Assembly (NCBI GenBank): GCA_946546175.1 | Contig: CAMNNY010000117.1 | Coordinates: forward strand, 1 to 43,100 | Source: an uncultured Bacteroidales bacterium | GTDB taxonomy: Bacteria > Bacteroidota > Bacteroidia > Bacteroidales > UBA932 | DNA length: 43,100 bases | Direction: 5' to 3' | In this document: one piece after another, positions 1,627-40,056 of the stretch | Layout: each line of letters opens with the position of its first letter | Position numbering within the stretch: position 1 is the first letter of the stretch | Notes under the pieces: model-generated | What the model was told of the DNA's origin: nothing | The model's database searches: none | The model's input: the letters and a program-made list of their open reading frames with translations, nothing else | Made by a program: the position numbers and the translations under genes

Positions 1627-3720
1627 ATGAGAAGACTGTTTGTCCTAATGTGTCTGCTGGCCCTCGCGCTCAGTTCATCCGCCGCAGTCCCGACTTTTTT
1701 TGTCAAGGCTGCGCCTCAGGTCATGGATGCACTCAGATGTACAATCGACAGTTCAAGGGCTGACGGCGTCCTCAAGTGGACTGTAACCGTCTCCAACTTA
1801 TCCGACAAACGCATCGAGCCCGAGGCGGCCGGCATTTCTCTTGGCATCGATACCTACATGGACAAGTATCCTGAGTGGCTGGACAAATACTTCCCGACCC
1901 TACTCTACTGCGAACGTACTCACTTCTACGGATATTTCCAGAGTCCCTCCGGCAAGGTTATAGCCATCGCATCGCCCGACCCCGTCGCCTGTTGGCATCT
2001 CGACTATAACATCGCTTACGAAGACCCTCCGGGCTATCCTTTCTGGGGGCATCGGATTGAAGGTGCGTATCTCGATCTAATCCACTGTCTGCCACTTCCC
2101 AAGCATCATCCGCAGAATCTGACAGGCTTGGATCCTGGAGAGTCCAGGTCGTGGACTATATACCTTAAAGAGCTGGAGAGCCTCGACAAACTCGCTGAGA
2201 CCATCTCTGCTACTGCCGGAATACCCGTCATAGATCTGGAGAAGACCAGTTATGCCCCAGGAGAGAAGTTCCGCTACAAAGTATACGGAGAAGGGGTCAG
2301 GGTCAGAGCCCGCCGACGTGCGTTCAGGGGTACGCATACAATAACGGCAACCGACAGAGAAGGCCACATAGCCACTGCAACGGTTCATATCCGCACCCCT
2401 TGGTCCAGGACAATCAAGCTCGCACGGGCAGCAGCTCTTCGCTACAAGCAACACGGCGGCTCGCATGTCGAATCTTCCTATGGCTTCTTCTCCGCTTTTC
2501 TGGCTGCGAAGCATTTTCCCTCGACAATATATGACCCCCCGTTGAAAGATCGCTTCGACTTCCTTCTCGATCTGCAGTTTGACACTGTTCGTGCATATCC
2601 CAGAGTCTTTCCGGACCGCATCCAGAATACGGCGATGACCATAAGCATGCTTGCAGACAAATACGAAGCATACGGCGACCTCTCCGACCTGCGCCTTGCA
2701 AGCCGCCTGTGCGATTGGATGACAGACCATTCGCAGGCATCTGACGGCGCTTTCATGAATGGTAATACCGTCTACACCAGTGTCATCTATATAGCAAAGG
2801 CGATAGTTGAACTTTCACTTGCCGAACGCGATTGTGGCGATCCCGATCTGGAGGAGGCTGCAGAGAGGCACTATGCTTGCGCCGAGAAGGCAGTAGACCA
2901 GCTGGTCAGGGCCAGGGGAGACTTCAACACAGAAGGCGAGATTACCTTTGAAGACGGGATGGTATCCTGCTCGGCCCTGCAGATGGGGCAGCTCGCCCTT
3001 CTGACCGATGATCCCCACAAGAGGGCCATATATGCCGGAGAAATGCTCAGGCTTCTGGGTGAGCACGACTGCCTTACACAAAACTTCGTCCCGGATGCCA
3101 GAAGACGCGGGGGAACGCTCCGTTTCTGGGAAGCGCAGTACGATGTAATGCTTATCCCGAATATGATTTCCTCGCCCCACGGCTGGAGTGCCTGGAGGGC
3201 TTACGCTACTTACTACGCATACCTGCTTACGGGCGAAGAAAAATGGCTACGGCAAACCTTCGACGCGGCCGATGCTTTCTCCCAGCTGATAGACGGCAGG
3301 ACGGGCGAACTGAGATGGGCCTTCGTCGTGGACCCGTATGTAAGGGGAGTGCAGGCCGACGAGCCGATAGAGGGTTCGAGCAAGGACTCTCTCCTTTCCG
3401 GAAATCCCAACCCGGCTTGTTATCCCAACCATGAAAAGGTTCTGGGCGAGTGTTATGTCCCGATGGTAAGCGACTATCAGACCGTAAATGTCTGCGACAA
3501 CGACGTCCACGAAGTCTTCAAGTTCATAGCGGAGGCCGTACTCACCCGAGCCTTCATCCTCGAGCGGCCGGACGGAAGCATAGGGGCCTACAACTGCAAA
3601 GTCCGCAGGCGCGGCAAGACTCTTATCGTCAAGGCAGACGAGAAGCAAATCAAAGAATTGTCTGTAAATCTGAAGTCGGACTATGAAGTCCGTTTTTCCG
3701 GAAATATATCATCATTATGA
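1627..3720 (+). CDS. Secreted protein with N-terminal beta-sandwich-like region and (alpha/alpha)-toroid-like C-terminal region; candidate carbohydrate-active enzyme of unassigned family
   Basis: 697-aa ORF with a signal peptide ([20 protein letters not shown]), toroid-like helical repeats rich in W/Y/D, and translational coupling (ATGA) to a GH2 gene. No family motif firmly recognised. Confidence 0.75.
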
Positions 3721-5570
3721 AAAGATATCTGACCATATTAATTCTTACACTATCGCTTACACTTCCTTTATGTGCCCAGGGCTGGGCGCCTGCAGGAGAC
3801 AGGCTTAAAACCCGCTGGGCAGAGCAGGTAGACCCTAAATGTCCGCTTCCCGAGTATCCCCGCCCTCAGATGGTCCGTCAGGACTGGATCAATCTCAATG
3901 GCCTCTGGGATTATTCGATAACTAAAGCAGACCAGCAATACAGTAAGCCGGACGGGAAGATCCTGGTGCCCTTCTGCGTAGAGTCTTCGCTCTCCGGAGT
4001 TCAGAGAAGCATCACAAAAGAAGATGCACTCTGGTATGAAAGGACCTTTACAGTTCCTTCAAAATGGCGCAAACAGAGCGTTCTTCTTCATTTCGGAGCA
4101 TGCGATTGGAAAACTGAAGTCTGGGTCAACGGGACTAAGGTCGGAGAGCATAAGGGAGGATACGCCCCGTTTACTTTCGATATAACAAATGTCCTCAGAA
4201 AGAGCGGCAGGCAGACTATCCGGGTCAGGGTCGAAGATGCCAGCGACAACGGCTATCAGCCGCGCGGCAAGCAGTGCCTCTCGCCCCGTGCAATCTGGTA
4301 TACGCCAACTTCCGGCATCTGGCAGACTGTGTGGCTTGAGCCTGTAAACAAGTCGGCCTACATCGCCTCATACAACACTGTGTGGGACGGAAATACTCTG
4401 TCCATTGATGTCAATGCTGAAGGCGACTATGATGGGATTAAGGCAGTTCTCAAAGACGGTTCCTCAGTAGTCGGCGAAGGACTTAAGATAGCAGTTGAGA
4501 ATCCAAAACTCTGGAGTCCTTCATCTCCCAGCATTTATGGTCTGGAAATATCTCTTCTCAAGAAAGGGAAGACGGTAGACAAGATTGATGGCTACACCTG
4601 CCTTCGCACCGTATCCATGAAAAAGGACGAATGGGCAGGCTCGCATCAGAATGCATACAAGCGCCTGGCTCTGAACGGAGAGCGCCTGTTCATGTTCGGT
4701 CCTCTGGACCAGGGTTACTGGCCGGACGGAATCTTCACCGCGCCTACAGACGAAGCTCTGAAGTCCGATATAATCCGTACCAAGGAACTGGGCTTCAATA
4801 TGATACGCAAACACGTAAAGGTAGAGCCCGCCCGCTGGTACTACTGGTGTGATGTTCTCGGAATAATAGTCTGGCAGGATATGCCCTGCATCGCCGATCC
4901 GGACAGGGAGAACTCCGTCTGGCGCGATCCGGAGGTGGTTGAGAATTCCGTTAACTGGTGGTCCGGAGACAGCTTCGTAGGCGGTTCAGACTGTAAAATC
5001 CCCGAGGAGTGGAAGGACAACTATTACCACGAATGGGGAGAGATAATCGACGCCCTGAAGCCTTTCCAGTGTATTGCTGTCTGGGTGCCTTTCAACGAAG
5101 CGTGGGGCCAGTTCGACACCCGCGAGGTAGTTGCCTTCACCAGAGCACATGACTCGACCCGCCTTGTCAACGAGGCCTCCGGTGGAAACTTCCACTTCGC
5201 CGGCGATATAATCGATGTCCACCATTATTCCTGCCCGGCGATGAACGCCTTCGACCATCAGTTCATCAATGTCCTGGGCGAATATGGCGGTATCGGTTTC
5301 CCCGTAAAGGGCCATATGTGGGTGGAATCCTCAGACAACTGGGGCTACAGCTACGGTAAGGATAAGCAGGGTCTCCAGGACCTCTACGACGAATTCGGAG
5401 AGATGCTCAAGGTCTTCATCAAGACAGGATGCTCAGCCGCAGTCTACACGCAAACCACCGACGTGGAACTCGAATCCAATGGCCTGATGACCTACGACAG
5501 AGAGGTAGTCAAGTTCGACATCGAACATCTGAAAAACGTCAACCAATCTATCATAGAGACACTTAAATGA
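3717..5570 (+). CDS. Glycoside hydrolase family 2 protein (beta-galactosidase/beta-glucuronidase-like)
   Basis: [55 protein letters not shown], acid/base region [11 protein letters not shown] and nucleophile region [11 protein letters not shown]. Signal peptide present. Confidence 0.92.
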
Positions 5571-7120
5571 GAAGATTATTTCTGGCGGCTGCCGCCATCC
5601 TTGCGGTTTGCTGCTCTTCGGAAGAAGCCCTGACCAGAAAGGCAGAGGCCGATTATGCCATACCAATCCGTAAGGGGGAGCCCTATTGGAACGTATACGC
5701 GAAGAAATTCACCTATGCGCCGGCCTTCGGTTTCGAAAAGGTCGAAGGAGCGGCCGAGTACCGATATACGGTCAGACAGAACGGCTCTGCAGTAGCCTCT
5801 TTCAAGTCTTCGACTCCCAATGATGACCTTGGAAGAATATGGAAGTTGATTCCTCCAGGAAAGACAACACTCACCGTCACTGCGCTAAACTCGCGCGGAG
5901 ACTCGCTATCGCTTGCCGGAACCCGCGAGTTCGTAAGGGATTTCCCTTTCAGGGGAGATTTCGAAGGCCCTGCAAAGAGCTATAGACAGACCGCCCTGGA
6001 TGCCTGCCGCTTCATCCACAACATGCCCTCTACCCGCCATTGGCAGGAGAGCGAGCTGCCGGATATGTCCTATCCCTTCAATTCGTATGTCTGTAAGATA
6101 GTGGGCGCGACAGTGCGCATCGAGTGTCTGGTAGCGCGCGAGATTCCCGAGCTCCATGACGAAGCGATAAAGGCCGCCCTTGGAGCCGGGCGCTACATGG
6201 CCTCCCTCGCTCAGCCCGAAGGCTCTCCGTTGGCTGGATGGCCACCCACCTATGGCGAGGCGCCGGAAGACGGCGACACCTACGTTTCGAAGGTCCAGGC
6301 GGGCAATGGGGCCAAGATGATGGTCCTGGAGGCATCTGTAGCCGGCGAAGCCTTCCTCGATCTGTTCGATGCTACCGGCGATTCCCTATGGCTTGAGCGC
6401 TCGCTCGCCGTTGCCCGGACTTATGCCCGAATCCAGCATGTAGACGGTTCATGGCCCATCAGGGTAAATCTCGCGACAGGGGAGTCCCTCAGCCACTTCC
6501 GCCTCTGGCCCGCACATGCGCTCAAGTACCTGCGCCGTTTCGAGAGCCAGTACGAAATCAAGGAGTTCGAGCAGACGCGCCTCAAGGCCGAGAAATACAT
6601 AACCGAGGTCGCGCTTCCGCGCTTCGACCTTTCGGGTATGTTCGAGGACTCGATGTGGGATGATTTCCCCTCATATATGAACCTTACGAACTTCACGGCC
6701 TCGCCCTATGCAGCCTATCTTCTGACTGCCGAAAAGCCCTCGAAGCTCGATGTCAGCAACGCCTATGACCTCATCCGCCTGAGCGAGGATCAGTTCGTCC
6801 ACTGGGACAAGTTCGAGGGCGTCAATGCCTTCCCGCCTTACGTATGCGAGCAGTATTTCTACGAAGAGCCCATCGATTCATCGATTGCAGATGTGTGTGA
6901 CGGGTATCTGTCGCTCTACGAATACAACGGCGACAAACTGGCTCTGGCGAAGGCAAAGGCCCTTCTGAATTCGCTGACCCGCTTCCAGGAACCGTCCGGC
7001 CGCATCCTTACTCTGATGGTGGACTTCGGCGATCAGGAGCCGGGTATAGAAGAGCTCTGGCTGAACAGTACATGGTGGACCGCTAGCCAGCTTCTAAGGC
7101 TTGATAAGCTTATTCGCTGA
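5567..7120 (+). CDS. Lipoprotein with (alpha/alpha)-toroid-like architecture; possible D-glucuronyl C5-epimerase-like or glycoside hydrolase-like protein
   Basis: 517-aa ORF with lipobox-like [20 protein letters not shown], then helical-toroid features ([40 protein letters not shown]). ATGA overlap with the GH2 gene. Confidence 0.6.
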
Positions 7121-8759
7121 GAGACTCCAAGAGGAACTTCCTCGTCTCCATATAACGGGTCGGGGAAGTACAATAGACCCACCAATTCGTTACGAGCCCG
7201 TCGCAGATAGCGCGGGCTTTTCCTACATCCTTGCGCTCCAGCATCTTCAGGAGTGTGATGTCTTCCAGACCGTCACGCATCTGCTCGAAGCGTATCGAAC
7301 GCAGGAATTTATGGTAGCCCGGGTAGACGATCCAGCTGTCGCCGCCGGGAAGTACCAGAGAGCCTGACCACTTGCTGGCGTCTTTGTAGCAGTCTGCATT
7401 CCAGTAATTGAAGCCCCAGTGCAGGAAACCTTCAGCGCCGTACTTATAACCCATCCAATAGACCATACGGCCTTTGAGAAGGGGCTGCTCGATAAATCTG
7501 TTGGGATACTCTTCCTGAGGGAAACAGCAGGTGTAAAACCAGATATGGTCTCCCGCCTTCTGGCGCTCCTTGTAGAAGTCGTAGTTGTTGTGCCAGATAT
7601 TCAGCTGAGGCACCCAAATATCCACCGCACCGGTCAGCCTGGTAGTCTGAAGAGCCTCAAGAACCTGGATGTCTTTCCAATAGCGGCGGATAAAGCGGAC
7701 GACCTCGCAGTAGCTTTCGGCATTGGCGTCGATAGGCTCGTCGCAGACTTTCTGGACCCACCTGTCTGCCCAGCCGTTCTGCTCGACATGGGCCTTGTAA
7801 GCCGGCAGGAACTGCGAGTAGAATTCCTGTACCCTGGGATCGGAGACGGGCAGCAGCTCAATCTCGTCGCCTCCCATCGGATAAAAGAGTCCCATCGGGC
7901 TTTCCCATACCGGGTTCAGCCTATGGCCAAGTTCGGCGCCCTGGATCCGTTCTCCCACCCCGTGGGCTATGTAGCCTCGGACCTGCTTGTCGAAAAGAGT
8001 CCAGTCGAAAGTCCATTTCCCGTCGCTTCCGCGCTCCATCCCGACTACCCTGAAGATATTGACCATGGACATAGTCTGATGGCCCTCGTACATCTTCTCG
8101 GCCAGCTGGTCCATATACTCCCAATAAAGGTCGGAATCAAGTTCGACCTTCTCGCCGTTGTTCCAATAGGTGAGGACCTCGGGGAAGTCGAAGACCCAGT
8201 TTACGTTCTCAAAGGATGGTTTCTCCATATCGAACGGGTAGACTTTGACCTTTACCGGCTCTCTGAAACAAAAGCCTCTTCCTTTCATAGTTACGGTAGC
8301 CGTGTAGATGCCCGCAGGAGTCCTTTCGGGGACACGCAGGGTAATCCAGGGACAGAAGGCTCTGAATGCAGGCAGATCGTAGCTGTCCTGTTCCAGAATA
8401 GGATCGGGGAAGAGCCCGGAATTGCTGCGTAGGGCGTCATGGGCCGGGTACTGCTGGAGTTCCGAGCAGCCTACATAATCGACGAGACCACATACCGGAG
8501 CGGGAATCTTATTACCCTCATCCGAGCGGAATTCGCTGCAACTGATCCTGAAGTTCTTGACCGGAGAATTGGAATACAGCGCAAACTGAAATTCTACATT
8601 CATCCCGCCCGCGGCGTATTGCATCTGGGGAGCGGCCGGAAAGGCCGTCATCTCAGGAAATACCTTGACAAGGGGATCTACCTGGCTGCAGGTTACCCTG
8701 ACGCATGAGAGCAGGCTGAGGGCTGCAGCGGCTATTATTGGGGCTCGTAACGCTTTCAT
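7110..8759 (-). CDS. DUF4091 / GH123-like putative glycoside hydrolase lipoprotein
   Basis: VQKVCDEPIDANAESYCEVVRFIRRYW (Asp-Glu pair as in GH123) and C-terminal YPGYHKFLRSIRFEQMRDGLEDITLLKMLER, typical of DUF4091. Paralogous to 30903..33194. Confidence 0.82.
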   Translation of the reverse strand: MKALRAPIIAAAALSLLSCVRVTCSQVDPLVKVFPEMTAFPAAPQMQYAAGGMNVEFQFALYSNSPVKNFRISCSEFRSDEGNKIPAPVCGLVDYVGCSELQQYPAHDALRSNSGLFPDPILEQDSYDLPAFRAFCPWITLRVPERTPAGIYTATVTMKGRGFCFREPVKVKVYPFDMEKPSFENVNWVFDFPEVLTYWNNGEKVELDSDLYWEYMDQLAEKMYEGHQTMSMVNIFRVVGMERGSDGKWTFDWTLFDKQVRGYIAHGVGERIQGAELGHRLNPVWESPMGLFYPMGGDEIELLPVSDPRVQEFYSQFLPAYKAHVEQNGWADRWVQKVCDEPIDANAESYCEVVRFIRRYWKDIQVLEALQTTRLTGAVDIWVPQLNIWHNNYDFYKERQKAGDHIWFYTCCFPQEEYPNRFIEQPLLKGRMVYWMGYKYGAEGFLHWGFNYWNADCYKDASKWSGSLVLPGGDSWIVYPGYHKFLRSIRFEQMRDGLEDITLLKMLERKDVGKARAICDGLVTNWWVYCTSPTRYMETRKFLLESLSE

Positions 8760-11700
8760 TTATCTGATAAAGGGAAATACTGATACTCGTAATTCGGTTG
8801 CCCCGTAGGGGACAAGAGTTATGTTTTGAATCTCATCCGAAAGAGGCTTCACATGATCTGGAGTCGGAACTTCAGGAGTGAATCTGTCTTCTTCAAGGGG
8901 CCAGTCTATCTTTCTTGCCGGAACTGTAATAGTAACAGGGGAGTTGCCCAGATCGAAAGGATAGCCCTTGCGGCGCTTCGAGATGCTTACCTTAGCCTCA
9001 CGGGCTATATCGTCCGCGCTACCGCTAAGAGCGTAATTCCACTCTGAAGCGGGAGTGATGCTCCAACACTTGAAATCCGGATTTTCGGGGACCTTTCCGT
9101 TCATATTCTCGTAGACCGTAGTGTCCTCGACTTTATTGCCGGCTACATCGAGAGCATACAGAAGAGGTCCTCTTTCTACATAGTAGCCTTTTCCGTCTAT
9201 CTCCTTTACGGATACCTTCATAGGAAGCGTCAGACGAACCTTAGTCCAGCGGCTGAACTTCCTTTCAACGGTAACGAAAGAGCCTGGCTTGAGTTCTCCG
9301 CGGTACTTTCTCAAGCCTATTCTGAGAGTGGCATTCTCACACCATTCGGGGATCCTCAGCTTGAGGGCAATCTTTGCACGTCCGGGGTTACGGAAAGTGT
9401 AGGTTACGGTCTCGTCGAAGGGATACTCCGTAGTCTCTTTTACAGTTGCCGTCTTTCCACCTGCTTCGAAGCAGTACTCTGAAGGGCCGAAAAGAGTACT
9501 TACCACCTCTCCCTGAGGGCCTCTCATCCACATCCTGTCTACATAGTTCGGCATTATTCTGTGGACATTTCCTGCGCAGCATTCGGTCTGGTGGGTAGGC
9601 CTGTAAGCCATCCAGGTACTGCCGTGGAAGAAACCGTTGTGGTTGGAATCACCCGTGACGCGAACCTGATTGACAGAAGAGAAATACTGAAGCGACTTGA
9701 AGTCCTTGGTAATCGCTCCCGGACAAGCATTGAGCACGGCTCGTTCAATCATGTCTGCATACTTTGCCTCGCCCGTAATCTGCAGGAAATACCCCAGGGT
9801 CCAGGTGTAATCGGCAATGTCACAAGTCTCGTGGCTGTTTCGGATTTCGCCTCTGCCATAGAGTGCTTCAGCGCTCACGGGGACTCCGTCGGGCAGCATA
9901 TGCTCGCGAAGCAGGTTGTTGTGGGCGTTGAGCGCCAACTCCTTGTATCTTTCCTTACCGGTGTAGGCATACAGGAGCATGGGGAGCTTGAGCTCTTCGC
10001 AGAAAGTAACTCCGTGCATGAAGGGGACATGATCCATAGCGCAGGCTTCCGGTGTAAGATCGGTAAAGAGACCGGCGTTCCATACTTCTTCGCTTAGGGT
10101 AAGCAACGCCGGATTGTGGGTGTGGGAATAAGTCCACAGCATGCCCTCGATAGATACTACATTGCGCCATAGCTTCATGCGCTCGGTGTTGAGAGTGAGG
10201 TAGTGCTTCTCCAGTTTGGAGGGAAGCGCCTCGTCGCGGTTGTAATCGTAATATGCCTTCATTGCCCTGAAGAAGACCGCCATCGGCCACATTTCTGCGA
10301 AACCGAAGGTAGTGTGGGCAAAACGCCCCGTAGAGTCCGCGTGGTCTACGGTATAATGAATCCCGCCCTCGCCTTTACGGATAAGGTCCCGCTCGCCCAG
10401 AATATAGGCCAGGCGGAGCATGCCGTCTGTGTAATAGGCAGTCTGTTCGTAGCGCCACCAGTCGCTTCCGTACGATTCGGTATTGCGGGTGATGTTCTCG
10501 CCATCCCAGAGGCAGGAATCATAAGGGTAGGAAAGGGCTTCAGGGTGGCCGGTCATACCGGAAAGCTGCCTCTTGAGGAACTCGAGCAGCCAGCCGTCGG
10601 TCTTGATGTGTCCGATTCCACCGTCACGGAAGGCCGAATAAGGGGCCTGAACACAGGGAGCCGGTCTCCCATACTTTTTTACTCGCGCGTCCCTTATAAC
10701 GCCCTTCCAATCGAGGCCGAAAGCGAAGTCATAGGCGTTGCCTTCAGAGTCGGTGTAGCAGCGCATATCGCCGGGCGTATCCTCCGCCTGGAGTTCGACG
10801 GTATTCATATCCGCCGGCATCTGAACCGGCAGCAGGCCCTGAGGCTCCGCCTTACCGGAGGCAATGTCAAGCATGGCCTGATACTGAATGCCGAAGCCGA
10901 TCAGGATTGCGTCTGCGTAAGGTTCAATCTCGGCGGGGACGAAGGGATTGTCTGCCGCTACTGCGAGAACTACGGGCTTATCTCCCATAGCCTTGCGGGT
11001 TGCCTTCACCAGGTCGAGATCCGTCCTGTTGGAAGTCCTGACGGTCTTTCCTTTGTAGCTTCTGTTGTCGAACTTCTCGAACGGGTCGCCTCCCGCAATG
11101 CTCTTCTCTCGGGCCGAATCAGCTGTATAATCATTGTACTGAAGGCTGATGGGAAGATAACCGTTTCCACCCTTCATGCGGTCTGCCAGATCGTAGCCGT
11201 AGCCACTCTGAGGACTCTGAACCATTACAAGGGCGAAATCCGCCTCCTCAGGAGTCCGGGCAAGAGTGAAATACCTGCCTACGATAGCCGTGTCGATAGG
11301 GTAGACCCAGCTTTCAGAACCGGTTGAGCCGTTAAGAAAAGTCTGTTTCTCGCTGTCGAAACGCCTGGGGAACCATACCTTCTTACCCGCAGCGACCGGG
11401 AGAACATTCGAACGGTTCTTGACCATCACAACGGACTTGAGCTGGGCCTGATAGCCCTTTTCCATAAACTCCGCCTTTCCAACGGTACGCTCGGTATAAT
11501 CGGGATCGATATAAGGATTGTCGAAAAGTCCGGTGCGGAACATGTTCATCAGAAGGCGGACCGCCGAGCGTTCGAAGCGCTCGCGGGCGCTCTTCTCCCC
11601 AAACTCATCGCACCACTTCCTGTAGGCGGCTAGTACGGGGCCCTTGTCGTTGTTGCCGCCAAATTGGTCTACGCCTGCCTTGATGACACGGTAATGTCTC

Positions 11701-12986
11701 TCGTCCTCAGAAAGCGTCTCTACACCCCAGGGCTTTCCGTATGCCTCCTCGACCTTGTAATAATCGTGGGTTATACCCCAGTCGGTACAAACAACGCCGT
11801 CGAAACCGTATTGGTCTCTCAACTTTTCGTTGATAATGTACTCGCTGAAGCTATTGCCTACGTTGTTCCCTGAAGGATCCAGCCCATAGGAGATCGTGTA
11901 ATAAGGCATCACCGCCGAAGCAGAGCCCGTCTTACCGTCCAGCTTAAACGCTCCCTCGACGAAGGGGATAATCTGCTGGCCTACGTTGTCATTGGGATAG
12001 ACAGAGTACTTACCGAAGCTGTAGTGGGCGTCGCGTCCGCCTTCTCCCGCACCTCCGCCGGGCCAATGCTTGACCATCGTGTTGACGCTCCCGAAGCCCC
12101 AGCCGTCTTCGATCTGCTCACAGACCTCGGATTCCTGGAAACCGTCGATATAGGCCTTGGTCAGGTCGGCCGCGAGATACGGATCCTCGCCAAAAGTCCC
12201 ATAATCACGGGCCCATCTCGGATCGGTTGCAAGATCCGCCTGCGGCGAAAGGGCGGTCGCGATACCGAGAGCCCGGTATTCTACCGCTGCAATCCGGCCG
12301 AAACCCCGGACCAGGTCGGGATCGAAGGTGGCAGCCAGTCCCAGCGGAGCCGGCCACTTGGAGATAGTGCCGCTCGATCCGGCGTTGAATTCGGCCACCG
12401 TCCCGACTTCATGGCGCGGGTCCGAACTTATATTGACCGGGATACCATGGCCCCGGCCCTCGCAGAATTCTTGGGCATTGTTGTTCCACTGGGCGAACAT
12501 GCGCGGGGTCTCCGAGCGGACGATAAGGACCGCGCGAAGGTTGTCCTCTGCAAGAAATGCCTTCTGTTTGTCGCTGAGGGCCGATTTAGGCAGGCCGCTG
12601 AGCCTGAGGATAGTCCCGTTGTAGGTAGACGACCAGAAACCGTAATCGTCCGTAGGGATGGCCTGGTGGCTGCTGTAGAGCATCAGGCCGGCTATCTCTT
12701 CGATGGAGAGTTTGGATGCAAGGTCCTCGGCTCTTTTTCGGGAGCTGAGACGCCAGTCTTCGTAGGGATCGAGTTCTCCGTCCCTGTCCAGATCTTTGAA
12801 ACCGTATCCGTCTGAATTAAGTATCGATATTCCGGAGGCGGGGGAGTATCCGAGCGTACGCCCTCCCTTCTGAGATATCACTCTGAACTGGCCGTAATCG
12901 GTTTCGGTATAGCGCACGCCTGGGTTGCAGGAATTGAGTGCGGATAAAAAAGCCAGAGCAAAAAGACCGATCAAACTCTTTTTCAT
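8760..12986 (-). CDS. Fusion lipoprotein: N-terminal GH3 (~8760 side is C-terminal) and C-terminal GH127/DUF1680-type beta-L-arabinofuranosidase-like module
   Basis: One 1408-aa ORF. GH3: LDRDGELDPYEDWRLSSRKRAEDLASKLSIEEIAGLM, KHWPGGGAGEGGRDAHYSFGKY, GFDGVVCTDWG. DUF1680: GRGEIRNSHETCDIADYTWTLGYFLQITGEAKYADMIERAVLNACPGA, RPTHQTECCAGNVHRIMPNYV, YVERGPLLYALD. Boundary near nt 10650-10720. Confidence 0.9.
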   Translation of the reverse strand: MKKSLIGLFALAFLSALNSCNPGVRYTETDYGQFRVISQKGGRTLGYSPASGISILNSDGYGFKDLDRDGELDPYEDWRLSSRKRAEDLASKLSIEEIAGLMLYSSHQAIPTDDYGFWSSTYNGTILRLSGLPKSALSDKQKAFLAEDNLRAVLIVRSETPRMFAQWNNNAQEFCEGRGHGIPVNISSDPRHEVGTVAEFNAGSSGTISKWPAPLGLAATFDPDLVRGFGRIAAVEYRALGIATALSPQADLATDPRWARDYGTFGEDPYLAADLTKAYIDGFQESEVCEQIEDGWGFGSVNTMVKHWPGGGAGEGGRDAHYSFGKYSVYPNDNVGQQIIPFVEGAFKLDGKTGSASAVMPYYTISYGLDPSGNNVGNSFSEYIINEKLRDQYGFDGVVCTDWGITHDYYKVEEAYGKPWGVETLSEDERHYRVIKAGVDQFGGNNDKGPVLAAYRKWCDEFGEKSARERFERSAVRLLMNMFRTGLFDNPYIDPDYTERTVGKAEFMEKGYQAQLKSVVMVKNRSNVLPVAAGKKVWFPRRFDSEKQTFLNGSTGSESWVYPIDTAIVGRYFTLARTPEEADFALVMVQSPQSGYGYDLADRMKGGNGYLPISLQYNDYTADSAREKSIAGGDPFEKFDNRSYKGKTVRTSNRTDLDLVKATRKAMGDKPVVLAVAADNPFVPAEIEPYADAILIGFGIQYQAMLDIASGKAEPQGLLPVQMPADMNTVELQAEDTPGDMRCYTDSEGNAYDFAFGLDWKGVIRDARVKKYGRPAPCVQAPYSAFRDGGIGHIKTDGWLLEFLKRQLSGMTGHPEALSYPYDSCLWDGENITRNTESYGSDWWRYEQTAYYTDGMLRLAYILGERDLIRKGEGGIHYTVDHADSTGRFAHTTFGFAEMWPMAVFFRAMKAYYDYNRDEALPSKLEKHYLTLNTERMKLWRNVVSIEGMLWTYSHTHNPALLTLSEEVWNAGLFTDLTPEACAMDHVPFMHGVTFCEELKLPMLLYAYTGKERYKELALNAHNNLLREHMLPDGVPVSAEALYGRGEIRNSHETCDIADYTWTLGYFLQITGEAKYADMIERAVLNACPGAITKDFKSLQYFSSVNQVRVTGDSNHNGFFHGSTWMAYRPTHQTECCAGNVHRIMPNYVDRMWMRGPQGEVVSTLFGPSEYCFEAGGKTATVKETTEYPFDETVTYTFRNPGRAKIALKLRIPEWCENATLRIGLRKYRGELKPGSFVTVERKFSRWTKVRLTLPMKVSVKEIDGKGYYVERGPLLYALDVAGNKVEDTTVYENMNGKVPENPDFKCWSITPASEWNYALSGSADDIAREAKVSISKRRKGYPFDLGNSPVTITVPARKIDWPLEEDRFTPEVPTPDHVKPLSDEIQNITLVPYGATELRVSVFPFIR

Positions 12987-15900
12987 CTTCTCTCCTTTAC
13001 TTCGTCTATAAGTTCCTTGGGCGATTTCCCAAATTTAGCCTTGAAAGACTTGCTGAAATATTTGGCGTCTGCGAATCCTACAGAATATGCCAGATCCGAG
13101 ACCCTGATCTTGCCCGTTTCTTTCAGAATGGTTTTGTAGGCTACTGCAAGCCTCGTATTTATTATGAACGCTACCGGGGTAAAGCCGGTAAGGCTCTTCA
13201 TCTTCTCTGTGAGTACTGTCTTCGATACAGCCATCTCTGCCGCGAAATCGGATTGGCTGAACGACTCGTCGGAGATGTGGTCGTCTACTACTCCTACGGC
13301 CTTTTCGAGGAACTGTTTGTCTATAGAGGTATACTCGCTGTCCTTTACCTCGAAAACAAGCTGAGTGCGCAGGTCTGCTATCTGCTTCTCGCGCTTTCTC
13401 ATCAGGTTGCTTATCATAGCCGAGAGCACTGCGAAATTGCAGGGCTTGGTAAGATAGCCGTCTGCCCCATGACGATAGCCCTCGATGCTGGAATCATCGT
13501 CTTTTTTGGCCGTAAGAAGGATCACCGGGATGTGGCTGTACTCGATATGTTCCTTTATGTAGGAACAAAGGTCCATTCCGTTCATTCCCGGCATCATGAC
13601 GTCAGTCACTACAACATCAACGGGATTCCCGGAGAGGATTTCTATCGCCTCCTCGGCGCTGCCGCAGGTTATAACATTGAAGCGCTTGGAGAGGATTACG
13701 TTGAAAAGGTCACACAGGTCCTGACTGTCATCCACACAAAGAACCGTGTAATTCTCCTTTATTACGTCTTCACCTATCGTAAGGGCCAGAGGCAGGGAAG
13801 AGTTCCTGGGGTTTTCCTGATCGGTTTCGGTCTCGCTGTAGCTGGACTGGGAAATAGGGATAGTAAAACTGAACCTGTTACCTATACTCTCTGCGCTTTC
13901 TACCTTGATGGTACCCTTATGGATAGTGACAAGGTCTTTGACAAGAGAAAGACCGATACCGTTGCCGATAGTGTTGAACTTGCGGTAATCGCCTTCATAG
14001 AAGCGCTGGAAGAGCTTTGAGATAGTACTCTTGCTCATCACCTTGCCGCCGTTTGTACAATTGACGATAAGTGAGTCTGAGGCGAGTCTGGCTTCAACTG
14101 AAATAGTACCGTTTTCAGGTGTATACTTGACTGCGTTGGAGATAAGGTTGTAGATAATCTTATCCAGTTTGTCCGGATCGAACCAACCCTTTATCGATGT
14201 AGGATCGCAAGTATAGGTAATAGTAAGATTGCGTTTCCTGACCAGGGGCTTGAAAGCCTCCACACAGTGTCCTATGAATTCCGCCGCATCGCCTTCGGAT
14301 ACCTTGAGGCTCATATTGTCGCTCTCTACCTTTCTGAAATCCAGTACCTGCTGAACAAGGCGAGTAAGGCGGATGGCGTTCGAACTCATTATCGCAGTTA
14401 CATTCTTGTCTTTCTGGGTCTTGGGATCAAGACTTTCGATAGAAGCGAGAATAATGCTCAGAGGGGTAAGGAATTCATGGGAAACGTTGGTGAAGAAACT
14501 GAGCTTCGCCTGATTGATTTCTTCTGTTTTCTGGGCCCTGAACTGTTCGTAGGCAATGCGCCTTTTCATCTCCATCCTTTCTTTTGTGATACGGACAGGG
14601 ATGAAGACGGCAGCGAAAAGGAGAATTGCGTAAATCAGGAAAGCCCACCACGAAAGCCAGGGGTTCTGAGGGATATATATCTCCAGACTGCTTACTGCCC
14701 CGGGCGTCTTGTCTCCGAACCTTGAACCCGATACTTCGAAGATGTAACGGCCGGGCTTGAGATTGCGGAACGATGCTTTATTGCTCTCTGCGCTTATAAT
14801 TGTCCAGCCCTCGGAGCGGCGTCTGTCGCTTTTACGGGACAGCCTGTAACGATAAATACCTTTTTTGTGGGAGCTGAAATCCATCAGGGAGAAGCTTACC
14901 GTAACATCCCTCTGATTCTGCTCTATATCCGTAATGGAGGCTCTGCTCTCGTAGCCCTTAGGAGCGGGGCTCTGCATACAAGGGAAACAGACTATGCCGC
15001 GCGTACTTCCAAAGGCCATCCGGCCGGAATCCGGCAGGTAGGCGGAGGTATTCATGTTGAACGAGACTCCGTCGAGGCTTTCGAACCACACGCTCTCGAA
15101 CGAGCCGTCGCTGTAGAGGAAAGAGGCAAGCTGGTTGTCTGCAGTAATCCAGATGCGGCCGTCGGGGCTCTGGGCGAGGTTGTTTATGTTTCTGCGCCCG
15201 AGGAAGGCGAGTTCTTCGAGTGCTTTGAATGAATCCGAATTCCTGTCGTAGAGGTACAGGCCATCTCTGGGTGATGCCACCCATATATTGGATGAAGAAT
15301 CGACAAGGACCGAGTTGAAGCTTCTGCGCTCGCGCTCGTTTCCGCTAAGGTAACCGGTCTTGCCGTCGGGAGAGAACTTGACTATTCCACTGAAATCAGT
15401 CGCAGCCCAGATGCAGTCCGACGAATCTACCGCAAGGTCGATAATCTTGAGTTCCGGGTCGATGGAGCGGATATCGCCGCCTCTGGACATACGGTAAACG
15501 CCCCTGCTGGTACCTATTATCACATCGCCCCTCGAATCCCTTGCAAGGGCCCTTATGCGGTTGTCTCCGAGCCCGGAATTGGCCGAGCTGAATACGCGTC
15601 CTGTCTTGTCTTTGTAGTCGTATACCCACAATCCTGACTCATAACTGCCGAACAGGATTTCGCCGCTGTCTTCCAGCTCCAGCGATGTTTCAACTATACC
15701 GGTATAAGGGAAGCCGCGAAATGCAGGAAGATCCGAATAATTGCTCTCACGGCCGGTATTGGAATCGTACAGGCTAAGGCCATGGCCGGAGATTCCCAGC
15801 CAGTAAATGCCGTCACCCGTGTAGCAGATGTTCTTTACCGAATTGGTCTTGTATTTAGCCCGGATCGATTCCAGCTTGATAGTTGAGTATGAAGACTGGT

Positions 15901-16879
15901 CTGATTCGGCTATGCAGATGCCTCCTCCGAGAAGGCCGAGCATCATCGTGCCATCTGCAGTTTTAACTATGGAGTTGACCTCGTTATAGGGGAGTCCCTC
16001 GTCTGTACCGTCAGGGTAGTAATTGACGAATTTCCCCTCTCTCATTATGCTCAGTCCGCTGCGGCTTCCGATCCAGATGTTGCCTTCCTCATCCTCGCTT
16101 ATATCGTAGATTATATTGTCGAGGATAGTATCGGGCTGCCTGTCGTCGTGTGAGAAACGCTGATAGGGGAGAGTGTCGTCGGTAGCGGAGGCAGGGTCCG
16201 TTTTCAGAAGGCCGTTACCCCAGGTACCTACCCATAAACGGCCCTTAGAATCCAGGAAAAGAGTAAAGGCTGAGCCCAGGGCGCCCTGGTTGTATGAGTA
16301 AAGCTTGCCTTCCGAGGTACTGTAGCGATGCAGGCCGCTCATCCAGGTCGTAATCCAGATATCCCCCTGCAAGTCTGAACAAACGGAAATCGCATCCGAG
16401 AGGCCGACCCAGGTAAAGCGGCTTTCGTCCTTACCGCGGCAGAACACTCCCTTGTCGGAACTGATCCAGATCTTCCCGTTGGAGTCTCTGGTCATTCTGG
16501 ATATATTGACATTGTTCAGCGCTTCGTCCTCTACCCTTTCTACGCTGCCTGAATGCTTGTCCATCAAGAACAGGCCCCTGGCAGTAGCGACTAGAAGACT
16601 CTTCTCGTCGTAGTCTATAACGGAATGGAGGTAATTGTCGAAATAATCGTCTGCAGCGCTTCTGGTGAAATAGAGCCTTGTGTCGTAGCCGTCGTAGCGG
16701 ACTATACCCTGATAGGTCACAGCCCAGAGATAACCTTCACCGTCTTGATAGAGATAAAGGACATTCTCAGAAGGAAGGGATTGAGAAGGGAGCGCTCTGA
16801 ACGCAATATCGCCCGCAGCCGCCTGAAGACAGACGGCAAGGAGCGCTAGTGCGAGCGAGAGTACCTTCCTCATAAACAT
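12983..16879 (-). CDS. Hybrid two-component system (HTCS) regulator: periplasmic beta-propeller/Y_Y_Y sensor, histidine kinase, receiver, AraC-type HTH
   Basis: Reg_prop-like repeats (DSKGRLWVGTWGNGL, DEEGNIWIGSRSGLS), HisKA VSHEFLTPLSIILASIESL, HATPase NLISNAVKYTPENG, receiver VVVTDVMMPGMNGMDLC, AraC DLAYSVGFADAKYFSKSFKAKFGKSPKE. Confidence 0.97.
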   Translation of the reverse strand: MFMRKVLSLALALLAVCLQAAAGDIAFRALPSQSLPSENVLYLYQDGEGYLWAVTYQGIVRYDGYDTRLYFTRSAADDYFDNYLHSVIDYDEKSLLVATARGLFLMDKHSGSVERVEDEALNNVNISRMTRDSNGKIWISSDKGVFCRGKDESRFTWVGLSDAISVCSDLQGDIWITTWMSGLHRYSTSEGKLYSYNQGALGSAFTLFLDSKGRLWVGTWGNGLLKTDPASATDDTLPYQRFSHDDRQPDTILDNIIYDISEDEEGNIWIGSRSGLSIMREGKFVNYYPDGTDEGLPYNEVNSIVKTADGTMMLGLLGGGICIAESDQSSYSTIKLESIRAKYKTNSVKNICYTGDGIYWLGISGHGLSLYDSNTGRESNYSDLPAFRGFPYTGIVETSLELEDSGEILFGSYESGLWVYDYKDKTGRVFSSANSGLGDNRIRALARDSRGDVIIGTSRGVYRMSRGGDIRSIDPELKIIDLAVDSSDCIWAATDFSGIVKFSPDGKTGYLSGNERERRSFNSVLVDSSSNIWVASPRDGLYLYDRNSDSFKALEELAFLGRRNINNLAQSPDGRIWITADNQLASFLYSDGSFESVWFESLDGVSFNMNTSAYLPDSGRMAFGSTRGIVCFPCMQSPAPKGYESRASITDIEQNQRDVTVSFSLMDFSSHKKGIYRYRLSRKSDRRRSEGWTIISAESNKASFRNLKPGRYIFEVSGSRFGDKTPGAVSSLEIYIPQNPWLSWWAFLIYAILLFAAVFIPVRITKERMEMKRRIAYEQFRAQKTEEINQAKLSFFTNVSHEFLTPLSIILASIESLDPKTQKDKNVTAIMSSNAIRLTRLVQQVLDFRKVESDNMSLKVSEGDAAEFIGHCVEAFKPLVRKRNLTITYTCDPTSIKGWFDPDKLDKIIYNLISNAVKYTPENGTISVEARLASDSLIVNCTNGGKVMSKSTISKLFQRFYEGDYRKFNTIGNGIGLSLVKDLVTIHKGTIKVESAESIGNRFSFTIPISQSSYSETETDQENPRNSSLPLALTIGEDVIKENYTVLCVDDSQDLCDLFNVILSKRFNVITCGSAEEAIEILSGNPVDVVVTDVMMPGMNGMDLCSYIKEHIEYSHIPVILLTAKKDDDSSIEGYRHGADGYLTKPCNFAVLSAMISNLMRKREKQIADLRTQLVFEVKDSEYTSIDKQFLEKAVGVVDDHISDESFSQSDFAAEMAVSKTVLTEKMKSLTGFTPVAFIINTRLAVAYKTILKETGKIRVSDLAYSVGFADAKYFSKSFKAKFGKSPKELIDEVKERR

Positions 16880-18531
16880 TAGTTCCAGCCTGTATTCTGA
16901 TTCAGATTAGGATTTTTGTGGAGTTCGACTGCAGAGATAGGATACCAGAGCATCTTGTCGTCCCAGTACCTGGTCTGAACCTTCTTCTTTGTACAGGAGA
17001 AAGAATCATCTCCGCCCTTTACTATATTCAGTCCGTAGATATCCACTGTAAGATTGCCGGTCTTCCAACGCCTCAGATCCCACATCCTGTGGCCTTCGAA
17101 GCAGAGCTCGACCCTGCGCTCGTTTCTGAGTCTTGCGCGGAACTGAGCCTCCGAAAGACCTGCAGGGATGTCAGGCATAGAGTATACCGCCCTTATCTTG
17201 TTGAGCGCCGCGCGGGGACTGAGGGTATAGCTGACTCCGCCTATGGTCCCGGTATACTCGGGATTTCCTGTGGCTTCGAAAAGAGCCTCCGCGTAGTTGA
17301 GATAGACCTCCTGGACCCTGAAGACAGGGTAGATATGGGGATAGCTCGTAATGTTTCCTGCAGTAAGGCTGGTCGCTTCCTGAACAAACTTGCGAAGATA
17401 GAATGAGGTAGGGCTTGCATTCTCGACCGGAGAGCCGTTGCGTCCGCCTTCAAAGGTCTCGACAGTCTGGCCCTTGAACAGGTCGCCATTAGAGATTATC
17501 GCCTTCGCGTAACGGGGATCCCTTGACGATGGGTTCAGGAGATTTGCCATATGGAGGCTTTCGTCGAAAGGAGTACCGTCTGCGAGGTCAAAAGCCTCTG
17601 CAAGATTCAGGGTAGGGCAGATGCCCGACAGGCCTCCTTCGTAGCCGGCGGGGAAGTTGTTCTTCTCGTAGTTGTTGTCAGACACTTCCCTTATTCCGAA
17701 TATCAGGTCCTTTGCTTCCGAATTGAAGCTCTGTCTTGCAAGACCATAGACTGCCTTCTCCGAGGTAGAGTTGATAAACTGGGAAGCAGCTGCGGCAGCC
17801 TTATAATACTTTTCCTTGTCGTTTGAAGGGTTCGAGAGGGGGCTCGCGGCATACAGGAGTACCCTGGCCTTGGCTGCCATCGCAAAGCCCTTCGTGACGC
17901 GGCCTATTTCCGCGTAGTAGGAATCCGAATAGGTACTGGGAAGATGTTCGATACAGGCATCCAGTTCGCTCACAATCCAATTCACTATCTCGCCGTTTGT
18001 ACTGGGAACCAGATCGTTTACTTCCTCCTTGGTGAAAGTTCTGTCTGCCTTTACTATGTTGTTGTAGCGCTTGAGCAGTTCCATATGGAAGAAAGCCCTC
18101 AGGGCCCTTGCTTCCCAAGGGTAATTCTGGAGCTGGGCCAGATAATCCTTATAGCGCTCGTCCCATTTCGCGTCGGCGAAATCCTCCGGACAGTTTTCTA
18201 TAAGATAATTTGCGGCGCGGATAGCCTCATAATAGTAGCCCCACTGGTCATCAATCAGATTATTCTCTGACCAGCTCCCATCGTAGTAAGGAAGTACTAT
18301 ATCCGGAGAATTGGCATATACAGCGTCATCTGTCGCACACTCCTGGAAGGAGAGGAAACCAGACTTAAGATAACCGTAGACATTGGTCATCATGTCCTTG
18401 ACTTCGGAGAAATTGCCGAACTGGAAGGTCTTGGTGTGGTACTGCGATTCGTTGAGGTCCAGATCGTGGCAACCTGAAAGGCCAAGAGCGGCAAGGGCAA
18501 TGATTACAAATAACTTATTGTAACGTTTCAT
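16879..18531 (-). CDS. SusD/RagB family starch-binding-like outer membrane lipoprotein (second pair)
   Basis: Lipobox LGLSGCHDLD; WEARALRAFFHMELLKRYNNIV; RNERRVELCFEGHRMWDLRRWKTG. Confidence 0.95.
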   Translation of the reverse strand: MKRYNKLFVIIALAALGLSGCHDLDLNESQYHTKTFQFGNFSEVKDMMTNVYGYLKSGFLSFQECATDDAVYANSPDIVLPYYDGSWSENNLIDDQWGYYYEAIRAANYLIENCPEDFADAKWDERYKDYLAQLQNYPWEARALRAFFHMELLKRYNNIVKADRTFTKEEVNDLVPSTNGEIVNWIVSELDACIEHLPSTYSDSYYAEIGRVTKGFAMAAKARVLLYAASPLSNPSNDKEKYYKAAAAASQFINSTSEKAVYGLARQSFNSEAKDLIFGIREVSDNNYEKNNFPAGYEGGLSGICPTLNLAEAFDLADGTPFDESLHMANLLNPSSRDPRYAKAIISNGDLFKGQTVETFEGGRNGSPVENASPTSFYLRKFVQEATSLTAGNITSYPHIYPVFRVQEVYLNYAEALFEATGNPEYTGTIGGVSYTLSPRAALNKIRAVYSMPDIPAGLSEAQFRARLRNERRVELCFEGHRMWDLRRWKTGNLTVDIYGLNIVKGGDDSFSCTKKKVQTRYWDDKMLWYPISAVELHKNPNLNQNTGWN

Positions 18532-18543
18532 AGCGCATCCGAA

Positions 18544-21324
18544 TTAAAAGCTGACAGTAAGACCGGCGCAGACCGTACGGGCTGTTGGATAAATGAAATC
18601 TACGGCTTCGGGATCCATGATACCGATACTGTCGATGGAGAAGAGGTTGTTGCCTCTGAGGTATACCTGAGCCTCTCCCAGCTTCAGCTTGTCTGTAAGA
18701 GAGCCCGGGAGGGTGTAGCGAAGCTCCACCTCACGAAGCTTGAGGAAGGAGCCGTCCTCTGTCCAGAGGTCGCTGGGCAAGAAATTATTTGCATTCTCAA
18801 GGGTAGTCAGGCGGGGGTAGCGGGCCTCGGTGTTGGCTGCGCTCCAGTGATTCTCCAGATAGTGTTTGGAGATATTCTTGTCGCCGCCGTAGAGAGGCTG
18901 ATAGATGCTCGTAAGAACAGTAGGTATCGTACAACCCGAAACGCCCTGGAATACGGCTTTGAAGCTTACGCCTTTAAATGAGGCGCCGAGCTGGAATCCG
19001 TAGTAGAGCTCAGGGAGGTTGGATCCGAGCTGATACTTATAGTCGTAGTTGTCTATCTTGCCGTCTGAGTTGAGGTCCTTATACTTGATGTCCCCGGGAC
19101 GTACGGAAGCGAAGGTGCTGCGAACGATTCCGGGAAGAAGGTTTCCTTCATTGTCGAAATCAGACTCCTGATAGAAGCCGTCTGAGACAAGACCATAGAA
19201 GGTGCCGATAGGATGTCCGGTTATATACATATAATCATAGGGGACATACTCTTCTGCTATCTTCTCTATCCTGTTCTTTACAAGGCTTGCGTTTCCCTTA
19301 AGGAAATAGCTGACTTCGCCTATCTTTCCGTCCCATCCCAGAGTTACTTCGACTCCCTTGCCCGCGACCTTGCCGTCGAACGCGTCTCCTACGCCTATGC
19401 CGAGTACGCCTGAGTAGACATTGCCCGAGATAGTACGGAGATTGGTTCTGGTGTTACTGAAGAGGTCGATCTCGCCGCTCAGGCCGCCAAAGAGCGTAAA
19501 TTCAAGTCCAAGGTCGGCCTTGGCATCGAGCTCGGGCTGAATTCCAGTAGAGGGCAGCGCGCCTTCCTTCATACCGTTGATGACGGTAGGAGAGATGAAG
19601 ATATAAGAAAGGCCCGAGCCGTTGAACTGGATATCCATATCGCAGTCCAGGTTCGCATCCATTCCGACCAGACCGTAGGAGCCCCGAAGTTTGAGGTAGT
19701 TTACAGCGTCTAGATCCTTCAGGAAATCTTCTTTGGAGGCCACCCATCCAAGCGAAGCAGCCGGGTAGAAGCGGTATTTGTCGCCGCGGGGCATATAGCT
19801 GCTTCCGGAATAAGAGGCTGTAATGCTGGCAAGATACTTACCGGCATAGTCGTATGCGGCATTGTAAACCAGGTCGTGGTGGACATAAGAGGTATTTGCT
19901 CCGGTATTCTTGCGCTTTTCGCGGTTGAATACGAGGGCGGAAGCGATGTGATTGGCCCCGAAGCTGCGGTCGTAGGCTATCTTAGCCCTGGCATTGACAT
20001 GCATGAACTGATATGACAGATAGCTTGAGAAGCTCATTCCGGTATCGTTGCCGTACCTGACGGCCGAGTAATCGGCCAGCTCTCCGCCCTCGAACACGGG
20101 TGTAAAGACATAGTATGAACTTCCGAAACTCTTGGTATCCTTGATGTCGGCGGAGTTGTCATATGAGATGGCAGCCTCAGCGCTCAGGCCTTCCGTTATC
20201 GCAGAAAGGTCCTGAGTAATAACGAGGTCTGCAGAGAGCATCCTGGAGAAGATTTTCGCTTCTCCTGTACCCAGAATATCGTGGACCGGGTTGGCGTATT
20301 TTGCAGACTGAGCCCAGATGTTGTGGTACATTACAGGGAATCCTACCGAAGGAGCTGCGTAAAGCTTTTCAAGGCTGCTGCCCAGGGCGGGCTCTCCCTT
20401 TTGCTGGATTCGGGCCGACAGATTGACCGCAACATTGGTCGAACGGGTTACCGCTATATCAAGGTTCGAGCGGAACTTGAGGGCGTCGTATGTGCTCTGG
20501 GAACTGAGACCGTCTATAATACCCGTATTCTTGAAGAAACCGCGGTTACTCCTGTAGTCTGCATAAACATAGAAACGTGTGTTGTCCGAACGTCCGTCTA
20601 CGGAAATGAAGGCATCGTTGTCGAAGCCCAGGTTCTTTAGTACCAGATTCTGCCAGTCTACGGTAGGGATGAAGGAGTTTCCTGCCGATATCTGATCGAG
20701 ATTGGTCTGGGAATAAAGAGGGGAGAGACCGTCATTGACCCTTGCCTCGTTGACTGCCGACGCATACTCTAGGGGTGAGGCCATCTGAGGGACTCTGAAG
20801 GGGGTCTGAACTCCGAAGGTATATCCCGTCTTGATCTTGATGGCATCTGTCCCTCCGCGTCTTGTCGTAATGAGGATAGCGCCGTCTGCGCCCCTGATTC
20901 CGTAGAGGGCAAGGGATGCCGCGTCTTTAAGGACAGTGACACTCTCGACCTCGCGCACATCCACGAACGAGGCTTTGCGCTCCACGCCGTCTACCAGGAC
21001 GAGGACATGGTTGCCGCTGTAGGATCCGTTTCCACGGACGTTGACAGTAGGATAGCAGTCGTCCGGATTAGCCGTCGAACCGGCCTGATAGACTCCAAGA
21101 CCGGCAAGCTCTCCATACAGCGCACTGAGGATCTGGTGCTGGGAAGAGCTTTCGATCTGAGAGCCGCGTATCACCCCGACCGCAGCGGAGCTGGCCTCCT
21201 TACTCTGGAAAATGTTGTATCCAAGAGCGATTGAATCCGGCTTCGATTCCTGAGCCCGGAGACCCGGACAGGCAAGGAATGCTATCGCCAATGTAGTCAG
21301 TATATATTTTCTCATCGTAGTCAT
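18544..21324 (-). CDS. SusC/RagA family TonB-dependent receptor lacking an N-terminal carboxypeptidase-regulatory-like domain
   Basis: Plug VNVRGNGSYSGNHVLVLVDGVERKASFVDVREVESVTVLKDAASLALYGIRGADGAILITTRRG; C-terminal SFLKLREVELRYTLPGSL...AGLTVSF. 926 aa, and the plug begins shortly after the signal peptide. Confidence 0.95.
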   Translation of the reverse strand: MTTMRKYILTTLAIAFLACPGLRAQESKPDSIALGYNIFQSKEASSAAVGVIRGSQIESSSQHQILSALYGELAGLGVYQAGSTANPDDCYPTVNVRGNGSYSGNHVLVLVDGVERKASFVDVREVESVTVLKDAASLALYGIRGADGAILITTRRGGTDAIKIKTGYTFGVQTPFRVPQMASPLEYASAVNEARVNDGLSPLYSQTNLDQISAGNSFIPTVDWQNLVLKNLGFDNDAFISVDGRSDNTRFYVYADYRSNRGFFKNTGIIDGLSSQSTYDALKFRSNLDIAVTRSTNVAVNLSARIQQKGEPALGSSLEKLYAAPSVGFPVMYHNIWAQSAKYANPVHDILGTGEAKIFSRMLSADLVITQDLSAITEGLSAEAAISYDNSADIKDTKSFGSSYYVFTPVFEGGELADYSAVRYGNDTGMSFSSYLSYQFMHVNARAKIAYDRSFGANHIASALVFNREKRKNTGANTSYVHHDLVYNAAYDYAGKYLASITASYSGSSYMPRGDKYRFYPAASLGWVASKEDFLKDLDAVNYLKLRGSYGLVGMDANLDCDMDIQFNGSGLSYIFISPTVINGMKEGALPSTGIQPELDAKADLGLEFTLFGGLSGEIDLFSNTRTNLRTISGNVYSGVLGIGVGDAFDGKVAGKGVEVTLGWDGKIGEVSYFLKGNASLVKNRIEKIAEEYVPYDYMYITGHPIGTFYGLVSDGFYQESDFDNEGNLLPGIVRSTFASVRPGDIKYKDLNSDGKIDNYDYKYQLGSNLPELYYGFQLGASFKGVSFKAVFQGVSGCTIPTVLTSIYQPLYGGDKNISKHYLENHWSAANTEARYPRLTTLENANNFLPSDLWTEDGSFLKLREVELRYTLPGSLTDKLKLGEAQVYLRGNNLFSIDSIGIMDPEAVDFIYPTARTVCAGLTVSF

Positions 21325-21337
21325 TTCTTAAGATAGT

Positions 21338-23380: not shown

Positions 23381-23395
23381 CAGAATGTTCCTCCT

Positions 23396-30900: not shown

Positions 30901-30902
30901 AT

Positions 30903-34894: not shown

Positions 34895-34906
34895 ACCACA
34901 TAATTT

Positions 34907-40038: not shown

Positions 40039-40043
40039 TTGAG

Positions 40044-40051
40044 TATCTTTG
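40044..40051 (+). promoter_or_regulatory. -7 element (TATCTTTG) for the CBM9-like/GT2 pair; transcript predicted leaderless
   Basis: GAGTATCTTTG-AGCTT-ATG: element ends 5 nt before the ATG at 40057. Confidence 0.6.
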
Positions 40052-40056
40052 AGCTT

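Follow-up and report, generated by a model that had tools for sequence, protein, structure and literature searches.

Enzymes of glycoside hydrolase families 3 and 127 (GH3 and GH127) usually occur as separate proteins, and a gene that reads from one into the other raises two questions: is the joint genuine, and what would a protein with two such active sites do? A gene of this kind is found in a polysaccharide utilization locus (PUL) of an uncultured gut or rumen Bacteroidales bacterium (lineage UBA932; assembly GCA_946546175.1), on positions 1 to 43,100 of contig CAMNNY010000117.1, forward strand; this stretch of 43,100 nucleotides (nt) is referred to below as the window. A preliminary description of the window had proposed that a GH3 enzyme and a DUF1680 (GH127) enzyme are fused in one lipoprotein of 1408 amino acids (aa) that makes two sequential cuts on the same glycan branch. 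We find that the fusion is genuine, on the strength of its single frame, its Pfam domains and the occurrence of the same fusion in a second species, and that its product is likely, judging from its sequence, to be a bifunctional exo-glycosidase of the PUL.

A single frame encodes both enzymes

The minus strand between positions 8760 and 12986 is a single uninterrupted frame of 1408 aa, the length originally given, and on the plus strand the corresponding frame is closed by stops (Table 1). A complete GH3 enzyme occupies aa 20-775 and a complete GH127-like enzyme follows at aa 780-1408. Four domains pass their curated Pfam cut-offs: GH3_N (104.4 against 27 bits), GH3_C (32.9 against 31 bits), GH127_cat (aa 947-1148, 1e-13; 51.6 against 24.9 bits) and the GH127 middle domain (aa 1161-1256, 1e-15; 58.1 against 24.2 bits). 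In alignments with standalone GH3s, conservation stops near aa 772, whilst the GH127 part starts at Q780-A-P, the point at which a GH127 from Alistipes (see below) begins right after its putative signal peptide. A missed stop or frameshift had been named as a possible flaw at about nt 10650-10720; none is present at nt 10632-10670, close to that interval, and the junction is also open in the second genome.

That genome, G399, was the only other one found in a same-genus sweep of 400 genomes with the junction region; its whole junction is 98% identical and lies in a 1424-aa frame. It is the rumen metagenome-assembled genome (MAG) RUG489, independently assembled and from a second species of the genus. 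The two fusion proteins differ at 29 of the 1408 residues and their genes at 163 of the 4167 nucleotides compared. Synonymous changes exceed nonsynonymous ones in both the GH3 half (34 versus 12; p=3e-13 against neutrality) and the GH127 half (91 versus 25; p=2e-37), which argues that neither half is untranslated or unused; both are under strong purifying selection whilst fused.

The architecture, whose commonness had been left as a question, proved to be rare. No further GH3-GH127 fusion was found among the best matches from 393 Bacteroidales or 396 same-phylum genomes, and none beyond RUG489 among 80 GTDB loci, in searches keyed on the junction of this subfamily, which fusions of other GH3/GH127 branches could escape; a literature search found no paper on such a fusion. 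In agreement with the expectation that these families are usually separate, most relatives hold the GH3 (~60% identical) and the GH127 (~45-60%) as standalone proteins. Two long GH3 frames, of 1162 and 1216 aa (L037, L042), were not counted as fusions; the additional 468 aa at the start of L042 have no family match and, like an open frame upstream in the Alistipes locus L095, may be non-coding.

Two features of DNA divergence stand beside these results. Over window positions 2886-22035 (19 kb) the PUL is ~97% identical to loci L074/L075, compared with only 82% in the neighbouring mnmE stretch, and so appears to have been exchanged between the two fusion-bearing species. Within the fusion gene, a 300-nt block at ~9687-9986 that contains the HETC motif carries 58 differences, against 2-18 in the other blocks, and is a possible recombination patch.

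Active sites of the two halves

The motifs quoted in the preliminary description occur once each: KHWPGGG (306-312), GGRDAHY (316-322), TDWG (401-404), HETC (1052-1055) and TECC (1134-1137). Its assignment of the last two to a Zn-thiolate site is upheld, as alignment and conservation indicate an intact Zn/Cys site of clan GH-P. In HypBA1, Cys417 is the nucleophile and Cys418 a Zn ligand (PMC10728902). In the profile alignment with HypBA1 and Ara127N, E1053/C1055 falls on their ETC motif, C1136/C1137 on their CC motif, and E1040 on the Ara127N glutamate at the acid/base position; none of these five residues varies among 24 sequences related to the GH127 half. The Zn site of one Glu and three Cys, the Cys nucleophile and the Glu acid/base are all present. 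A model of the C-terminal half (mean predicted local distance difference test score, pLDDT, 76.7), which served fold matching only, matches BT1003, HypBA1 and Ara127N best among solved structures, with identities of 16-18%. The GH127 half shares with these cysteine glycosidases of GH127/clan GH-P the fold and the complete Glu/Cys/Cys-Cys site, but differs in its very low identity, an unrecognised C-terminal domain and the GH3 partner. Profile scores were 137-80 bits for GH127 chains and 75-46 bits for GH146 chains, and the NCBIfam model that matches best, that of aceric acid hydrolase, stays far short of its cut-off. The half is therefore filed as GH127-like, in clan GH-P, and not as a proven GH127 member, because the GH127 C-terminal domain falls below the Pfam cut-off; it may constitute an unassigned branch of the clan, and family membership leaves the cleaved sugar unfixed.

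The GH3 half belongs to the SN243-like branch of GH3. SN243, a beta-glucuronidase, and 9ul7, the closest solved chain, deposited as a beta-glucosidase, are its nearest solved relatives and share with it the nucleophile position and a KH(W/F)PGGG...D-x-H region. Both are nevertheless distant, and the glucuronide preference belongs to SN243, which favours p-nitrophenyl-beta-glucuronide by orders of magnitude (PMC9730296). D402 is invariant in the GH3 relatives (one aligned row reads C-D-W, with the D itself kept) and aligns with the SN243 Asp in whose place the solved variants 7qee and 7qea carry Asn or Ala.

The claim of a lipoprotein is plausible: judged by eye, the N-terminus carries a lipobox, LNSC, with Cys20 as the lipidated residue. 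The residues after Cys20 (NPGVRY) lack the acidic type of surface-export signal that has been described in Bacteroidota, which suggests the periplasmic side, and the fusion protein is probably a periplasmic lipoprotein.

An unfused counterpart in Alistipes

In the uncultured Alistipes MAG E16__bin38 (L095), GH3, GH127 and GH123 genes lie side by side in the order seen in the window. The GH3 gene ends in TAA and the GH127 gene comes next in the same reading frame, but here the enzymes are made separately, and each carries an export sequence at its N-terminus as judged by eye (MKKLVVSLLLTLLCLQVGA in the GH127). In the GH3 tree the two fused sequences have the L095 GH3 as their sister (Shimodaira-Hasegawa-like approximate likelihood ratio test, SH-aLRT, 96); in the GH127 tree they fall inside a clade of the same genus (98), beside two Alistipes sequences, one of them that of L095 (92). 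The fusion is most simply explained as the joining of two neighbouring PUL genes: a GH3 that lost its stop codon and a GH127 that lost its signal peptide would have become one protein, with no linker domain added. The unfused adjacency also suggests that GH3 and GH127 belong to one pathway. Four congeners hold an unfused GH127 at the homologous locus, among the same GH123 genes and, in three of the four, adjoining a GH31.

Other fusions and known multicatalytic enzymes

The GH127 branch is prone to fusion. Five congener loci encode proteins of 1306-1312 aa that have the same GH127 branch as C-terminal module, joined not to a GH3 as in the window but to a GH13 of the cyclomaltodextrinase type (assigned by Pfam in L048, L089 and L090, and by length and match position only in L091 and L092); a GH31 gene lies nearby at four of the five loci. 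At five loci elsewhere the partners are GH123 with GDSL, GDSL with GH97, a SASA esterase, a PF00756 esterase and a histidine phosphatase. Many GH127s of the same branch in Prevotellaceae and Bacteroidaceae carry a C-terminal extension of ~250 aa without a Pfam match (tested in L106).

Joined enzymes are familiar in these bacteria, CE15-GH8 being one example (PMC8417218), and the window fusion is a new combination of known modules. With two catalytic modules in one exported PUL protein (export judged by eye), it has the make-up of a multicatalytic PUL enzyme of Bacteroidota. Among its analogues the best characterised, BT0996 of Bacteroides thetaiotaomicron, joins a GH137 beta-L-arabinofuranosidase to a GH2 beta-D-glucuronidase and cuts two different side chains of rhamnogalacturonan II (RG-II) (PMC9843283). 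Each is a single PUL protein with two exo-acting glycosidases, and one module of BT0996 is a beta-L-arabinofuranosidase, a role that is family-inferred for the GH127 half. BT0996 differs in its unrelated families (GH137/GH2 rather than GH3/GH127), in its added carbohydrate-binding modules, none of which is recognised in the window fusion, and in having a known substrate, RG-II.

What the fusion protein may do

As a bifunctional exo-acting enzyme, the protein would use its GH3 half to remove a beta-linked sugar by a retaining route through Asp402, and its GH127 half to remove a terminal beta-L-arabinofuranose-like sugar, with Zn-bound Cys1136 as nucleophile and Glu1040 as acid/base, if family knowledge holds for both. 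The two halves would act on oligosaccharides imported by the neighbouring SusC/SusD pairs, and fusion would supply them one to one, export them by a single signal and hold them on a common membrane anchor.

Several observations tell against this account or the history proposed for it. The solved relatives of the GH127 half are mostly beta-L-arabinofuranosidases, and all are distant (<20% identity, by fold match); the GH127 C-terminal domain was not recognised by Pfam (12.3 bits against a cut-off of 23.7), although the corresponding region is conserved inside the subgroup. In the GH3 half, D319-x-H321 is only a candidate acid/base, and the AlphaFold model (pLDDT 58) is too poor to place the active sites relative to one another. 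The precursor arrangement comes from one Alistipes contig, L095, in which the regulator lies on the other side of GH3 and faces the opposite way.

It is possible, if doubtful, that the two cuts are sequential, the GH127 half taking a beta-L-arabinofuranose cap and the GH3 half the sugar beneath, as first proposed. Both families are exo-acting, their genes lie next to each other in Alistipes and are joined in the window, and the PUL context implies one glycan. Against the proposal, BT0996 cuts two different side chains, and related GH127s are joined to GH13, GH97, GH123, esterases and a phosphatase, so the enzyme joined to a GH127 does not have to cut the sugar that comes next. A protein in which one half alone is catalytic, the other serving for binding or structure, is improbable; the candidate status of the GH3 acid/base and the divergence of the GH127 half from characterised enzymes would allow it, but relatives keep the five catalytic and Zn residues of GH127 and the GH3 nucleophile without exception and selection constrains both halves, which disfavours a dead half. 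An assembly or sequencing artefact, conceivable for a 175-contig draft genome when standalone forms dominate, is rejected as having a negligible chance, since the same open junction lies in a continuous 1424-aa frame of a MAG assembled independently from another species, at a distance of ~163 nt differences.

Going further than the bifunctional reading itself, there is a slim chance that a beta-uronidase/beta-L-arabinofuranosidase fusion evolved here for a second time and independently (GH3+GH127 versus GH2+GH137), and that it acts on a glycan that no PUL is known to degrade, with N-acetylgalactosamine, galactofuranose and a cap resembling beta-L-arabinofuranose; the GH127 half would then give a repeatedly fused cysteine-glycosidase branch its first characterised member.

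The surrounding locus

The regulator gene overlaps the start of the fusion gene by 4 nt and the GH123 gene begins directly past its stop, with zero gap, which suggests that the three are co-transcribed; they probably form one operon. One GH123 of the locus is close to a beta-N-acetylgalactosaminidase that releases oligosaccharides or monosaccharides, of a family described in PMC11087588. The likeness of the GH2 to 9j6n and 7sf2 suggests galactofuranose in the substrate. Three PUL proteins have no Pfam match (1627-3720, plus; 5567-7120, plus; 26672-28414, minus), and the product of 5567-7120 has counterparts in related PULs at 71-72% identity.

Table 1. Features of the window and of related loci
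Feature	Position	Strand	Evidence
Fused GH3-GH127 gene, 1408 aa	8760..12986	minus	Open frame; Pfam; same fusion in G399/RUG489
Putative signal peptide, lipobox LNSC, lipidated Cys20	12927..12986	minus	MKKSLIGLFALAFLSALNSC, judged by eye
GH3 N-terminal (TIM barrel) domain, aa 136-412	11751..12581	minus	PF00933 1.1e-29
Possible acid/base region Asp319-Ala-His321	12024..12032	minus	D319, H321 invariant in relatives; D-x-H also in SN243, 9ul7
GH3 nucleophile Asp402 (TDWG)	11781..11783	minus	Invariant in relatives; aligned with SN243 variant position
GH3 C-terminal domain, aa 519-759	10710..11432	minus	PF01915 8.2e-8
Junction, aa 773-785 (GRPAPCVQAPYSA), without linker domain	10632..10670	minus	Conservation limits in standalone GH3s and GH127s
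GH127 (DUF1680) module, aa 780-1408	8763..10649	minus	Pfam; alignment; fold match to BT1003, HypBA1, Ara127N
Glu1040, equivalent of HypBA1 acid/base Glu322	9867..9869	minus	Invariant in 24 sequences; aligned with Ara127N Glu
Glu1053-Thr-Cys1055, Zn ligands (HypBA1 Glu338, Cys340)	9822..9830	minus	Invariant; aligned
Cys1136-Cys1137, nucleophile (HypBA1 Cys417) and Zn ligand (Cys418)	9576..9581	minus	Invariant; aligned
Hybrid two-component regulator	12983..16879	minus	Pfam Reg_prop, HisKA, HATPase, Response_reg, HTH_18
GH123 beta-N-acetylgalactosaminidase-like	7110..8759	minus	PF13320 2.9e-52; best solved relative 8k2j 1.1e-99
Two SusC/SusD pairs	16879..26599	minus	Pfam SusD_RagB and Plug
GH2 close to beta-D-galactofuranosidase	3717..5570	plus	9j6n 5.6e-137, 7sf2 6.9e-188
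Other PUL enzymes: GH28-like, GH123, GH20, GH3, GH31, CBM9_2	28642..40701	plus	Pfam
GH13-GH127 loci	L048 7020-10955, L089 7951-11880, L090 7862-11779, L091 7079-11008; L092 7289-11206	plus; L092 minus	
GH127-branch fusions elsewhere	L157 7327-11793, L173 3308-7570, L120 9863-14857, L050 7703-10546, L093 2745-5918	L050 minus	
Loci with C-terminal extension	L106, L111, L115-L119, L122, L124, L125, L128-L134 and others		

Significance

The fusion leaves knowledge of how either enzyme family works unchanged. Its origin is nearly directly readable, as the unfused one-frame pair and the fused pair both exist, and if the GH3 half is a beta-uronidase, the protein and BT0996 would be counterparts by convergence. 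The fusion is evidence that the two enzymes work on the same glycan, and it ties an apparently uncharacterised GH127 branch, present on contigs of Bacteroidota, Verrucomicrobiota and Kiritimatiellota, to an SN243-like GH3. Together with this GH3 partner, the neighbouring GH123, GH2, GH31 and GH20 enzymes narrow the search for the substrate of that branch.

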